Source: an uncultured Gammaproteobacteria bacterium
GTDB lineage: Bacteria; Pseudomonadota; Gammaproteobacteria; JAADHQ01
Assembly: GCA_947258755.1 (NCBI GenBank)
Contig: CAMYJO010000006.1
Location: 94,426-143,609 of the forward strand
Length of the DNA stretch: 49,184 bases
Reading direction: 5' to 3'
Part shown: positions 34,059 through 45,863 of the stretch, one piece after another
How the letters are laid out: the number at the start of each line of letters is the position of its first letter
Position numbering within the stretch: the stretch's first letter is position 1
Program-made: the position numbers and the translations under genes
Notes under the pieces: generated by a model
Seen by the model: the letters and a program-made list of their open reading frames with translations, nothing else
The model's database searches: none
What the model was told of the DNA's origin: nothing

Positions 34059-36149
34059 CTATTTCTTTACAGCTTCTGTCACACTGGCAGGAGCCTCACT
34101 ATACTTCTCAAATTCCATCGAATATGTGGCCCTGCCCTGCGTCGCTGATCGCAAATCAGTGGCATAACCAAACATCTCTGACAAAGGAACCTCAGCCCTG
34201 ATGATTTTGCCAGCGGGACTATCATCCATCCCCTGCACAAGACCACGACGTCGATTCAGGTCGCCCATGACATCGCCCATATTCTCTTCAGGCGTCACCA
34301 CTTCGACCCTCATGATCGGCTCCAGTAAAACAGGGTCAGCCTTCAGAGCACCTTCCCTGAATCCCATCGATCCGGCAATCTTGAACGCCATCTCGTTAGA
34401 GTCCACATCATGATAGGAACCGTCATACAGTGTGACTTTTACATCGACGACGGGATAACCCACCAGCACACCACTCTGCATTTGTTCCTGTATACCTTTA
34501 TCTACCGCCGGTATGTATTCCCGTGGAACGACACCACCGACGATATCATTGACAAATTCGTAGCCAGTTCCGGTTTCCGCCGGTTCGATCTTCAACCACA
34601 CATGGCCGTACTGACCACGCCCGCCTGACTGACGTACAAATTTGCCTTCCTGTTCTACTGCTGCGCGAATGGTTTCGCGGTATGCAACCTGCGGCTTACC
34701 GACATTCGCTTCAACATTGAATTCACGCTTCATGCGATCAACAATGATTTCCAGGTGTAACTCGCCCATCCCGGAAATAATGGTTTGCCCCGACTCTTCG
34801 TCCGTATGTACACGGAAGGACGGGTCCTCCTGTGCCAACTTGGACAAGGCAACCCCCATCTTCTCCTGGTCGCTCTTGGTCCTGGGTTCGATCGCTATCG
34901 AGATAACCGGATCCGGAAACTCCATGCGCTCTAATGTGATCACTTCTTTCAGGTCACACAATGTGTCACCCGTAGTCACATCTTTCAAACCAACTGCTGC
35001 CGCTATATCACCGGCGCGTACTTCTTTAATCTCTTCGCGGCTATTGGCATGCATTTGTACAATACGGCCAATGCGCTCTTTCTTGCCCTTGACCGGGTTA
35101 TAAACCGCGTCACCTGTATTGATGACACCCGAATAAACCCGAAAAAAGGTCAATGTTCCTACAAAAGGGTCGGTCGCAATTTTGAAGGCCAATGCTGAAA
35201 ATGGCTCATCATCCGTTGCGTGTCGCTCTGCCTCGCTTTCATCCTTGTCGTCGAGGACACCCTTGATTGCCGGCACATCAATCGGTGACGGCATGTATTC
35301 TATAATCGCATCCAGCATTGCCTGGACACCCTTGTTCTTGAATGCAGTACCGCAAAAACAGGGCACTACTTCATTAGTCAGGGTACGTTGACGAATTCCT
35401 TCGCGAATCTCGTCTTCGCTAAGCTCGCCCTGCTCAAGGTACTTATCCATCAGTGTTTCGTTGGCCTCAGCAGCGGCTTCTACCATCTGCTCACGCAACG
35501 CTTCACATTTGGCCTGCAATGCTGCCGGAATTTCGCGGGCTTCGTAAGTGACTCCGCGGTCCGCTTCATTCCAGTAAATAGCCTGCATCCGCACCAGGTC
35601 GACAACACCCTCGAAACCCTCTTCCGCACCGATATTCAACTGCATCGGTACCGGGTTACTACCTAGCCGGTCGCGAATCTGTTCTACAACGCGTAAAAAG
35701 TCAGCGCCGGAACGATCCATTTTGTTAACGAAGGCCATTCTCGGCACTTCATAACGCGTCGCCTGTCGCCATACTGTCTCAGACTGCGGCTCGACACCGC
35801 CGACGGCGCAAAATACAGCACAGGCGCCATCAAGCACCCGCAGGGAACGTTCAACTTCTATGGTGAAATCAACATGTCCCGGAGTATCGATAATATTAAC
35901 TCGATGCTCATCGAACTGCTGATCCATGCCTTTCCAGAAACAGGTCGTGGCCGCTGAGGTGATCGTGATACCTCGCTCCTGCTCCTGTTCCATCCAGTCC
36001 ATGGTGGCCGCGCCATCATGAACTTCGCCAATCTTGTGCGAGACGCCCGTATAAAAAAGCACTCGCTCAGTGGTGGTAGTCTTCCCGGCATCGATGTGTG
36101 CCATGATACCGATATTCCGGTATCGCTCTATGGGAGTTGTACGTGCCAC
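34059..36149 (-). CDS. fusA: Elongation factor G
   Basis: 696 aa, five domains. P-loop [49 protein letters not shown] and the domain IV segment [15 protein letters not shown] are all present. It drives translocation and, with RRF, ribosome recycling. Start is GTG at 36149; a Shine-Dalgarno is weak. Classic str-group position between rpsG and tuf. Confidence 0.97.
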
Positions 36150-36677: not shown

Positions 36678-37052
36678 TTAACTCTTCGGACGCTTGGCAC
36701 CGTACTTGGAACGACCCCTTCTGCGTGATTCCACACCAGAGGTATCCAGACTTCCGCGAACGATGTGATAACGCACACCAGGCAAGTCCTTTACACGACC
36801 GCCGCGCAGCAACACAACCGAGTGCTCCTGCAGATTGTGGCCTTCACCACCGATGTAACTGGTCACTTCAAAACCGTTTGTCAGCCGCACACGAGCTACT
36901 TTACGCATGGCCGAGTTAGGCTTTTTCGGTGTCGTTGTGTAGACACGTGTACACACACCGCGTTTTTGGGGGCAACTTTCCAAAGCGGGAACGTTACTTT
37001 TTTCCTGCTTACGCGTTCGCGGCTTGCGCACCAACTGATTGATTGTAGCCAT
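36678..37052 (-). CDS. rpsL: 30S ribosomal protein uS12 (RpsL)
   Basis: 124 aa. [20 protein letters not shown] and [17 protein letters not shown] are intact, so lysines linked to streptomycin resistance (K43 and the one in GRVKDLPG) are wild type. S12 controls decoding accuracy. It opens the str group behind a near-consensus promoter (37135-37163) and a terminator-like leader hairpin. Confidence 0.98.
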
Positions 37053-37083
37053 TAAAATCGTGCTCCGACTGCATAATTCTGCT

Positions 37084-37123
37084 AAAAAAACAAAAGACAG
37101 GCCAGATTTGAATCGGACCTGTC
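37084..37123 (-). promoter_or_regulatory. Terminator-like attenuator in the rpsL leader
   Basis: A 28-nt hairpin (37096-37123; 12 pairs, one mismatch) followed on the minus strand by TTTTGTTTTTTT (37084-37095). It starts about 5 nt after the predicted transcription start and lies 32 bp before the rpsL ATG. In form it is an intrinsic terminator between the promoter and the first gene of a highly expressed operon, so read-through must be regulated or the hairpin is bypassed. No obvious antiterminator partner was found. Confidence 0.6.
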
Positions 37124-37134
37124 AGAGCCGAGGA

Positions 37135-37163
37135 ATATTAGAGTTTAGGCATGCCTATGTCAA
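37135..37163 (-). promoter_or_regulatory. Strong sigma-70 promoter of the str-S10-spc-alpha array
   Basis: TTGACA (37158-37163), 17-nt spacer, TAATAT (37135-37140): a near-consensus promoter about 80 bp upstream of rpsL. Downstream, no gap of promoter size appears until rplQ, so it may drive the whole 18-kb array. Confidence 0.85.
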
Positions 37164-37234
37164 GGGGGTAATTGCCTTTTTTGGCAATTTTTCCCGGGCA
37201 GCGGCCAAAACCTGTTATTCCACCATACTTCACC

Positions 37235-37271
37235 CAAAAACAAGCCCCATTTTGAATCCAAAATGGGGCTT
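37235..37271 (-). terminator. Rho-independent terminator after rpoC
   Basis: A perfect 13-bp stem (37242-37254 with 37259-37271) containing AGCCCCATTTT is followed on the minus strand by TTGTTTTTGGG. It lies 30 bp after the rpoC stop and separates the rpoBC operon from the str promoter. Confidence 0.85.
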
Positions 37272-37300
37272 TTACGGTCATTGACGCGGCGCTTGAGAAA

Positions 37301-40300
37301 CTAGCTTTCGCTGCTCTCGGTAGCGACCTCGTCAGACGAGCCACTTTCCGCGGCAATCATCTGCGCTGCATCCAGCATTGGCTCCGGCTGATCTTCCTTG
37401 CCGCGGCGACGGCGCCTGTCTTCGTGATAAGCCAGCCCGGTACCAGATGGGATCAGGCGGCCAACGATGACATTTTCCTTAAGTCCTCTAAGGTCATCAC
37501 GCAGGCCACGTACCGCGGCATCAGTGAGCACTCGAGTGGTTTCCTGGAACGAAGCGGCAGAGATAAAGGAATCCGTTGCCAGCGAGGCCTTGGTGATGCC
37601 CAGCAGCAATGGCTCGACCAGTGCCGGCTGTTTGCCTTCACTAATCAATTGCTCGTTAGTCTCTAACACGCTGAAACGCTCCAGCTGCTCACCCTTGAGG
37701 TAAAGAGAATCACCCGGATGCTTGATTTCGACCTTCTTCATCATCTGACGGGAAATAACCTCAATGTGCTTGTCATTGATTTTTACACCCTGCAGACGAT
37801 AGACGTCCTGGATTTCCTTGACCAGGTAATCCGCCAAAGCATTGACGCCCAGCAGCCTGAGGATATCATGCGGATCCAGCTCGCCTTCGACGACCACTTC
37901 CCCGCGTTCCACATGCTCACCTTCAAAAATGGTGACATGACGCCACTTATGAATCAGCTCTTCATGTTGCTCACCATTCTCGTCGGTGATGACAAAGCGT
38001 TGCTTGCCCTTGGTTTCCTTACCGAAACTGACCGTGCCCGAGTATTCGGCCATGATACAGGGGTCCTTCGGCTTACGTGCCTCAAACAGGTCGGCAACAC
38101 GCGGCAGACCACCGGTGATATCACGGGTCTTGGATGACTCCTGCGGTATACGCGCAAGGACGTCACCCACCTCAACGGCGGTGTTATCGCTAACCGAGAC
38201 AATCGCACCGGCCGGCAAGGCATATTGTGCCGGGATCTCGGTACCGGGTATAAAGACATCCCCACCCTCATCGTCAACCAGTTTCACCATCGGCCGCAGG
38301 TCTTTACCGGCGGTGCCACGGGTCTTCGGATCAGAGACCGTCAGGCTCGACAGTCCGGTGATTTCATCGGACTTGGTGTGCACACTAACGCCTTCAATGA
38401 AGTCGATAAATTTCAGCGTACCGGCCACCTCGGTAACAATTGGATGCGTATGCGGATCCCAGTTCGCCACCACCTGACCGGCATTAACTTCGGCGCCATC
38501 ATCAACACTAATAATAGAACCATAGACAACCTTGTAACGCTCGCGCTCACGACCGTGATCATCCTGTATGGTCAATTCACCAGAACGGGAGATCGCAACA
38601 TAATGTCCGTCACGATTCTTAACCGTCTTCAGGTTATGCAGTTTGATACTACCATTGGATTTCGCTTCGATATTATTGACCGAAGCGGCACGTGACGCCG
38701 CACCACCAATATGGAAGGTACGCATGGTCAGCTGTGTACCCGGCTCACCGATAGACTGTGCAGCAACCACACCGACAGACTCACCCATGTTGATGCGATG
38801 ACCACGAGCAAGATCACGTCCGTAACACTGCGCACAAACACCGTGTCGGGTTTCACACAAGATCGGCGACCTGACCATCAACTGGTCAACACTCATCTCT
38901 TCCAATTTGGTTACCATGCGCTCATCCAGCAAGGTGCCGGCAGCAATAGCGACTTCATCAGAATCAGGCATGAAAATATCTTCACCGAGAACACGACCGA
39001 GAACACGATCGCTCAGGGATTCAATAACGTCACCGCCTTCAACGACTGGCGTAATCTTCAAACAATTTGTCGTGCCACAGTCTTCTTCGGTAACCACCAG
39101 GTCCTGCGCCACATCGACAAGACGACGGGTCAGATAACCGGAGTTGGCCGTTTTCAAGGCCGTATCAGCCAGACCTTTACGTGCACCATGCGTGGAAATA
39201 AAGTACTGGATAACGTTCAGGCCTTCGCGGAAGTTAGCCGTGATCGGCGTTTCAATGATCGAGCCATCCGGCTTCGCCATCAGACCACGCATACCGGCCA
39301 ACTGACGAATCTGCGCGGGACTACCACGCGCACCAGAATCGGCCATCATGTAGATGGAGTTGAATGAACTCTGAGCAACTTCCTCACCCTCAGCATTTTT
39401 AACTCTTTCGGTACCGAGTTTATCCATCATTGCTTTGGAAATCTGATCATTGGTATGTGACCAGATATCGATAACCTTGTTATAGCGCTCGCCCTGGGTG
39501 ACCAGACCGGATTCATACTGGTCCTGGATTTCCTTGACCTCTTCCTCAGCCTTGGCAAGGATGCTGGCCTTCTCTTCCGGAACCACCATATCGTTGGAAC
39601 AGATAGAAACACCGGCACGGGTCGAGTATTGGAAGCCCATATACATCAATTGGTCAGCAAAAATAACGGTTGTTTTCAGGCCCAGGCGACGGTAACAAAT
39701 ATTGATCAGGCGTGAGATCGCCTTCTTGCTCATGTCATCATTAATCAGATCAAATGACAGTCCCTTAGGAATAATTTCATACATCAGGGAGCGACCAACA
39801 GTCGTATCGACGATCCTGCTGGATGAATGCATCTCGCCGTCTTCATCGAGCACGGATTCCTGAATACGCACCTTGATCTGGGCATTAAGATTGACTACGT
39901 TGCCTTCGTAAGCACGATGCACTTCGGTGGTATCGGCAAACACCATGCCTTCACCCTTGGCATTGACACGCTCGCGCGTCATGTAATAAAGGCCCAGGAC
40001 CACGTCCTGTGAAGGTACAATAATCGGCTCACCATTAGCAGGTGACAATACATTATTGGTCGACATCATCAGTGTGCGTGCTTCAAGCTGTGCTTCGATT
40101 GACAGCGGTACATGTACAGCCATCTGATCTCCATCGAAGTCCGCATTGAACGCAGAACAAACCAATGGATGCAGGCGAATCGCCTTACCTTCGATCAGCA
40201 CTGGCTCAAAGGCCTGGATACCCAGTCGATGCAAGGTTGGCGCACGGTTGAGCATGACCGGATGTTCACGAATGACGTCTTCAAGGATATCCCAGACTTC

Positions 40301-41518
40301 GCCACCTTCACGTTCGACCAGCTTTTTAGCCGCCTTGATGGTGGTCGCCAGACCACGCAGCTGTAATTTATTAAAGATAAACGGCTTGAACAGTTCCAAT
40401 GCCATTTTCTTCGGCAGACCGCACTGATGCAATTTCAGTGTTGGGCCAACTACGATAACGGATCGACCAGAGTAATCGACACGCTTACCGAGCAGGTTCT
40501 GACGGAAGCGACCCTGCTTACCCTTGATCATGTCCGCCAGCGATTTCAATGGGCGCTTGTTGGTACCGGTAATAGCACGTCCACGACGACCATTATCCAG
40601 CAAGGCATCCACAGACTCCTGCAGCATACGCTTCTCATTGCGCACGATAATATCCGGCGCATTCAGCTCCAGCAGACGTTTGAGGCGATTATTTCGGTTA
40701 ATAACACGTCGATACAGATCATTCAGGTCCGATGTCGCAAAGCGCCCACCGTCCAAGGGTACCAGCGGCCTTAAATCAGGCGGCAATACCGGCAGTACAT
40801 CCAGGATCATCCATTCCGGCTTGTTACCGGATTCCAGAAAGGCTTCAACCAGCTTGGAACGCTTGGTCAGTCGCTTGAGTTTGGTCTCGGAGTTAGTCGC
40901 CTGGATCTCTTCGCGCAGCGTAACCGCTTGCTCCTTAAGATTGATGGAGCGCAGTAATTCCAATACGGCCTCGGCACCCATGCGTGCATCAAACTCATCA
41001 CCGTGTTCTTCAATCGCTTCGAGATAGGCTTCATCAGAAAGCAACTGCCCCTTCTCCAGCGTAGTCATGCCTGGATCAACGACAACAAAGGCTTCGAAAT
41101 AGAGCACACGCTCGATATCACGCAAGGTCATATCAAGCAACAAACCGATACGTGATGGTAATGATTTCAGGAACCAGATATGGGCAACCGGGCTGGCCAG
41201 TTCAATATGACCCATACGGTCACGACGTACCTTGGCCAGTGTGACTTCGACGCCACACTTCTCACAGACTACACCGCGATGCTTCAGGCGTTTGTATTTG
41301 CCGCAGAGACACTCATAATCCTTGACTGGGCCAAAAATTTTGGCACAGAAAAGTCCGTCACGTTCAGGTTTGAATGTGCGGTAGTTGATTGTTTCCGGCT
41401 TCTTGACCTCACCATAGGACCATGAACGAATCATATCGGGTGATGCTAATCCGATCTTGATTGCCTCAAAGTCCTCTACATTCCCCTGTAATTTTACCAG
41501 ATTGAGTAGGTCTTTCAT
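37301..41518 (-). CDS. rpoC: RNA polymerase beta-prime subunit (RpoC)
   Basis: 1405 aa, normal for gammaproteobacteria. The N-terminal zinc site is visible ([21 protein letters not shown]), as are the catalytic Mg-binding [18 protein letters not shown], the trigger-loop segment [12 protein letters not shown] and a second zinc site ([19 protein letters not shown]). The C-terminus is acidic and serine-rich. It forms most of the active centre with RpoB, 48 bp upstream. GCAGGAGAAG supports the start. Confidence 0.98.
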
Positions 41519-45782: not shown

Positions 45783-45815
45783 AAAAGGCCGGCGGCTTTT
45801 TACAAGCCACCAGCC
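45783..45815 (-). terminator. Attenuator/terminator between rplL and rpoB
   Basis: A 12-bp stem (45787-45798 with 45804-45815, two G-U pairs) and 5-nt loop, followed by TTTTCC on the minus strand, 48 bp after the rplL stop. E. coli also has a partial terminator here, which sets the ratio of L12 to beta subunit. Confidence 0.7.
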
Positions 45816-45863
45816 ATCCTGCTTTCAGCAATACAGGCTGCTGCATGCAACCATATGCAAGCT

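Follow-up and report, generated by a model that had tools for sequence, protein, structure and literature searches.

A conserved terminator-like hairpin behind the rpsL promoter of Gammaproteobacteria: a candidate attenuator of the str-S10-spc operon

Many gammaproteobacterial genomes carry, shortly past the -10 element of the rpsL promoter, a hairpin with an adjoining U-tract whose stem sequence, pairing and position are conserved. Sequence comparison leads us to favour, with moderate confidence, the view that this hairpin acts close to the promoter as an intrinsic attenuator of the str-S10-spc operon, in which the share of polymerases reading through would be regulated. It probably restrains the expression of ribosome genes in earnest, and attenuators of this sort have been predicted in other species.

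S12, S7, EF-G and EF-Tu are products of the str operon, which in the DNA analysed here – 49,184 nucleotides from an uncultured gammaproteobacterium, hereafter the window – continues into S10-spc. Control of this operon is described, in the accessible part of PMC10931766, as little studied outside Escherichia coli. A 2010 survey of rpsL leaders reported no feature shared among them; the hairpin described here can be searched for in many gammaproteobacterial families with a single model.

Anatomy of the rpsL leader

The window contains the elements singled out by an initial annotation – a near-consensus promoter, followed by a hairpin with a T-run and then by rpsL – and all of them lie on the minus strand. 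The features that matter to the argument are these:

37301..41518, minus strand: rpoC, the upstream neighbour in the same direction (TIGR02386, 1813.5 bits)
37242..37271, minus strand: a second terminator-like hairpin, just 3' of rpoC and 5' of the rpsL promoter (terminator scan; its counterpart in the sister genome G001 has changed arms)
37158..37163, minus strand: TTGACA, -35 element of the predicted rpsL promoter (promoter scan and sequence)
37135..37140, minus strand: -10 element TAATAT of the rpsL promoter (17-nt spacer from the -35 element)
37125..37129, minus strand: expected transcription start (estimated from the distance to the -10 element, 6-10 nt)
37096..37123, minus strand: 11-pair terminator-like hairpin GACAGGTCCGATTCAAATCTGGCCTGTC, built as GACAGGTC-C-GAT-TCAA-ATC-T-GGCCTGTC (RNAfold; matched by covariance models R1 and R2, see below)
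37084..37095, minus strand: U-tract TTTTGTTTTTTT, of the form T4-G-T7 (from the sequence; the 8-nt T profile is kept in relatives)
37063..37066, minus strand: probable Shine-Dalgarno element GGAG of rpsL (read by eye)
36678..37052, minus strand: rpsL, encoding S12, the first gene of the str-S10-spc run, with its ATG at 37052 (TIGR00981, 230.5 bits)
34059-36149: presumed fusA (from place and length)

The gene context is also as first described: profile matches, obtained for each gene, give a run in one direction that comprises rpoC and then rpsL, rpsG, tuf, rpsJ, rplC, rplD and rplB. The hairpin itself stands, with a smaller number of pairs than the 12 originally counted, as RNAfold yields 11 pairs and one C-U mismatch. 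Its stem begins 11 nt past the -10 element, so that transcripts starting between 37125 and 37129, as expected from the promoter, would have 2-6 nt of RNA 5' of the stem.

The 79-nt leader folds with a z-score of -3.16, and none of 200 shuffled sequences was equally stable. At -13.7 kcal/mol, the window hairpin is weaker than the median of the leader hairpins (-20.0). By an approximate terminator score, the window leader reaches 20.2 and the window's rpoC hairpin -11.9, with values above 0 in 69 of 90 leaders. Taken singly, the window makes a weak and unremarkable case, because simple scans return about as many sites in it as in shuffled sequence (18 terminator sites against 16.6, and 21 promoter sites against 21.0); the strong evidence is comparative.

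Conservation among gammaproteobacterial leaders

The comparison covers 175 leaders from gammaproteobacterial genomes (55 loci from S12 searches and 120 fetched stretches). This is a non-random sample, drawn nearly entirely from the top of the ranking of S12 matches, which were obtained in 320 genomes, and it omits a few listed places, such as the contig-edge G079 and second copies (for example G330:C195). Every leader except one contains a promoter-like site that exceeds the working threshold. In 92 of the 175, a hairpin followed by a T-rich tail begins no more than 30 nt from the -10 element, compared with 0.7 +/- 0.8 in dinucleotide shuffles, which excludes a chance fold; in 85 of these 92, the stem starts 8-14 nt past the -10 element. 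At the working threshold, the signature is missing from 83 of the 175 leaders, and the hairpin is thus dispensable in many lineages.

Nor does the element reflect a general habit of ribosomal-protein promoters: among leaders with good promoters in a set of relatives, the same scan detected it in 14 of 29 for rpsL, in none of 24 for rplU and in none of 7 for rpsP, the last of these numbers being small. The threshold is reached by 21 of 80 named loci, including those of Pseudomonas, Marinobacter, Kosakonia and Citrobacter and, within the Xanthomonadales, Arenimonas, Lysobacter and Pseudoxanthomonas. From the betaproteobacterial, alphaproteobacterial and more distant named loci, one (L071, from a Rhodocyclaceae bin) lies exactly at the threshold.

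Identity between the window and its sister genome G001 amounts to 90% in the promoter, 82% in the hairpin, 75% in the T-tract and 81% in the leader 3' of the T-tract; the rpoC-side stretches show 58-63%. Behind rpoC, the terminator hairpins of the window (37271-37242, minus strand) and of the sister-genome locus L002 have kept their pairing with changed arms.

When promoter and 5' arm were the sole criteria for picking leaders, a matching 3' arm was present in 73 of 82, against 12.0 in 200 shuffles (highest 20). When 63 leaders were aligned, 94.1% of cells were paired and two-sided changes numbered 58, as against 13.3 in shuffles, which ignore kinship. The core of the element, compensatory changes included, can be written GACAGGCC...GGCCUGUC-UUUNUUUU, and the alignment consensus (C)GACAGGCCGG-loop-CCGGCCUGUC(G)-UUUNUUUU. 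The comparison of relatives envisaged at the outset thus finds structure, U-tract and position behind the -10 element preserved across many families, with compensatory changes.

The GACAGG/CCTGTC arms are conserved not only in their pairing but also in their sequence. A sequence-conservation control against rpoC-side terminators, comprising 5 genomes only, gave an 8-nt arm identity of 0.54 vs 0.85. Conserved arms would also suit a DNA operator, the palindrome then being a repressor site that overlaps the transcription start, yet we hold this to be highly improbable: the span of the palindrome varies between 20 and 33 nt among leaders, which fits an RNA hairpin and not a site for a dimer on DNA, G-U pairs have been retained, and the T-run is found on one side only.

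This one-sidedness is also seen in 89 stems chosen without requiring T. The T fraction over the first eight positions of their 3' flank is 0.79, 0.80, 0.71, 0.60, 0.78, 0.71, 0.81 and 0.70, falling to 0.43, 0.31 and 0.12 past position 8, and the A fraction of the 5' flank is only 0.03-0.13. A T-rich 3' flank combined with an A-poor 5' flank is the signature of a one-way terminator. Position 4 of the U-tract is G in 28% of leaders, a break that may tune the element toward partial termination.

So sharp a U-tract, 8 nt long and touching the stem, would not be needed if the hairpin were a 5' stabiliser, with the stem shielding str mRNA against decay that depends on the 5' end and with the U-run serving as a stand-by site for a protein or the ribosome. 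That the stem begins a few nucleotides from the expected 5' end favours such a role. However, pairing between the 5' end and the Shine-Dalgarno element, seen in the single-sequence fold, was rejected as a conserved feature, since 5' ends pair with the Shine-Dalgarno region of their own species no better than with that of another (-3.08 vs -3.09 kcal/mol), and we regard stabilisation as quite unlikely.

Two further observations concern sequences around the hairpin. The stretch between the -10 element and the stem is strongly pyrimidine-rich, often reading CCGCTTCTTT or CCGCCTCCTT, a bias that may stem from initiation, from stringent control or from the RNA. The one leader searched for a boxA motif, L020 (genome G031), has within the last ~15 nt before rpsL the boxA-like sequence TGCTCTTTAACG.

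A covariance model restricted to rpsL

The conserved element was captured in two covariance models: R1, built from 63 leaders chosen for having the hairpin, the window included, and R2, from which the window's genus was left out. R1 matches the window at 37085-37134 with 41.0 bits, and R2 still gives 33.7 bits (E 2.5e-9). When run on 369 whole genomes from the class, R1 produced 92 matches at E<=1e-5, 91 of them directly 5' of rpsL and one at a contig end. The 64 with listed rpsL coordinates all lie 13-186 nt upstream of the gene on the same strand, and 27 further matches have S12 downstream. Genomes with R1 matches span 54 of the 182 GTDB families to which the searched genomes were assigned (counted by hand). 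The best match away from rpsL (G153:C57, 1.2e-5) has no S12 nearby and resembles a simple terminator at a 3' end.

The window's own genome contains one R1 match, at the rpsL site. A regulon of GACAGG hairpins in this genome was considered and rejected: the bare palindrome occurs at 7 places, a T-run stands beside the stem in 1 of the 6 others, and R1 finds rpsL only. An occurrence of the element outside the class was likewise dismissed, as a draw of 200 genomes from the phylum returned 7 same-phylum matches in other classes (E<=1e-4), none of which precedes rpsL and all of which look like ordinary terminators; a stray S12-like motif of 4 residues near one of the out-of-class matches (L378) is taken as chance.

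Probable attenuation and a possible role at the operon boundary

Because hairpin, U-tract and position are conserved with compensatory changes, attenuation – as the initial annotation had proposed – is the best reading of the leader, with termination itself a prediction. A polymerase leaving the rpsL promoter would make the hairpin almost at the 5' end of its RNA; at the U-tract, ~40-46 nt in, some polymerases would halt and let go of a very short leader RNA, and the remaining ones would continue into rpsL. Read-through might be set at the polymerase, by its speed or pausing or by Nus factors, ppGpp or UTP, or else by a factor recognising the conserved stem, comparable to the modulation of GraL discussed below.

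All five nascent-RNA folds computed for the presumed starts at 37125-37129 contain the same hairpin, and no alternative antiterminator structure was seen in them. As 2-6 nt 5' of the stem would leave no room for a classical 5' antiterminator, an aptamer or a sensor domain, any control would need to target the polymerase or work through a stem-reading factor, and the leader is most simply read as a terminator that is fixed and partly efficient. If the hairpin does terminate, it would provide a simple and testable case of early-elongation control without an antiterminator. A bolder proposal, to which we give a low probability, is that of a class-wide attenuator that dispenses with an RNA switch: the stem sequence GACAGGCC/GGCCUGUC would be under selection and read by an elongation factor, by the polymerase or by a product of the str operon, and operon yield would be set in the first ~45 nt by the early elongation state.

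That the window keeps its leader hairpin despite a separate terminator-like hairpin behind rpoC counts in favour of attenuation; against it count the modest stability of the window hairpin, the many leaders that lack the signature and the cost of a terminator on so strong a promoter, unless read-through is high.

The main rival is a terminator at the operon boundary, selected to stop rpoBC read-through into str, with rpsL transcripts escaping by virtue of early elongation or of a hairpin placed at their extreme 5' end. The rpoC stop was placed in 41 of the 55 loci examined. Where placed in hairpin genomes, it lies a median of 46.5 nt from the -35 element, with a separate terminator in between in 2 of 26; over all 90 hairpin leaders, a terminator-like hairpin is found upstream in 8 (5 by a stricter scan). 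The leader hairpin is thus usually the first terminator after rpoC, and selection may be for the boundary role.

Several features nonetheless weigh against this explanation, which we consider rather unlikely on balance. The hairpin's position is locked to the -10 element; the window, G001 and G017 carry both an rpoC terminator-like hairpin and the leader hairpin; and in Kosakonia and Citrobacter, where the gene upstream of rpsL is presumably not rpoC, a shorter hairpin occupies the equivalent position. Leaders that lack the hairpin have a separate terminator in 13 of 81 cases, and in 4 of the 15 with a located rpoC stop. Being mostly without a separate terminator too, they give no clear sign that one replaces the other. 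Attenuation and a boundary function may, moreover, both hold.

The links to NusG, S10 and growth rate that were initially suggested for the attenuator find no support in this analysis. The sole outside hint comes from stationary-phase enteropathogenic E. coli, in which an rpsL 3' end, either premature or processed, is reported and was checked by northern blot; it may or may not fall within the leader (PMC10687069). The main text of another E. coli 3'-end study does not contain rpsL (PMC7815308).

Comparison with known systems

The P26 motif (RF00630), expected to adjoin S12, was tried as an identity for the leader and rejected: it has no match there, and its match in the window's genome is at rplL-rpoB instead (45786-45860, below the cutoff, with 27.1 of 36 bits). 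The same rplL-rpoB gap holds a strong hairpin with a T-run (45815-45787, minus strand), which looks like an attenuator between L7/L12 and rpoB.

The Pseudomonas leader described as rpsL_pseudo (RF01773) shares with the present element its gene, its place after the promoter and the combination of hairpin and U-tract, and yet its covariance model finds no match at 36950-37400 of the window even at E<=10. Four Pseudomonas loci (L049, L050, L056 and L059) pass its 70-bit threshold, and L041 scores 54.4 bits. In the four passing leaders, the 5' helices of RF01773 overlay the predicted -35 and -10 elements and may therefore represent conservation of promoter DNA rather than of RNA.

Control by S7 in E. 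coli concerns the same operon but, according to the accessible part of PMC10931766, is exerted on translation, with the rpsL-rpsG junction rather than the 5' end as its site. A closer parallel in anatomy is the greA leader of E. coli, the source of GraL, whose terminator stem extends from +19 to +48 and whose regulation by GreA requires the stem sequence, as stated in the available sections of PMC6829880. Both have a hairpin of the intrinsic-terminator type within the first ~50 nt; GraL, however, belongs to another gene, has 18 nt before its hairpin and has demonstrated regulation by GreA, whereas for the rpsL leader the likeness is one of anatomy only. By analogy, GraL offers a precedent that early-elongation control via a stem can exist.

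Premature intrinsic terminators 5' of rpsL have been predicted in Pseudomonas, Xanthomonas, Listeria and Rickettsia by Naville and Gautheret (2010, PMC2965389), who cite Merino and Yanofsky for 24 species. In its available text, their paper reports no globally conserved sequence or structure in rpsL leaders and draws antiterminators. As far as that text goes, a predicted premature intrinsic terminator upstream of rpsL is what their attenuators and the present element share; the differences lie in the single sequence-conserved stem found here, in its fixed distance from the -10 element, in its spread over many families and, if transcription starts as expected, in the lack of room for a 5' antiterminator. 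The window element would thus be a broader form of the predicted rpsL attenuator, with a stem sequence of its own and, given the expected start, a geometry that disfavours an antiterminator.
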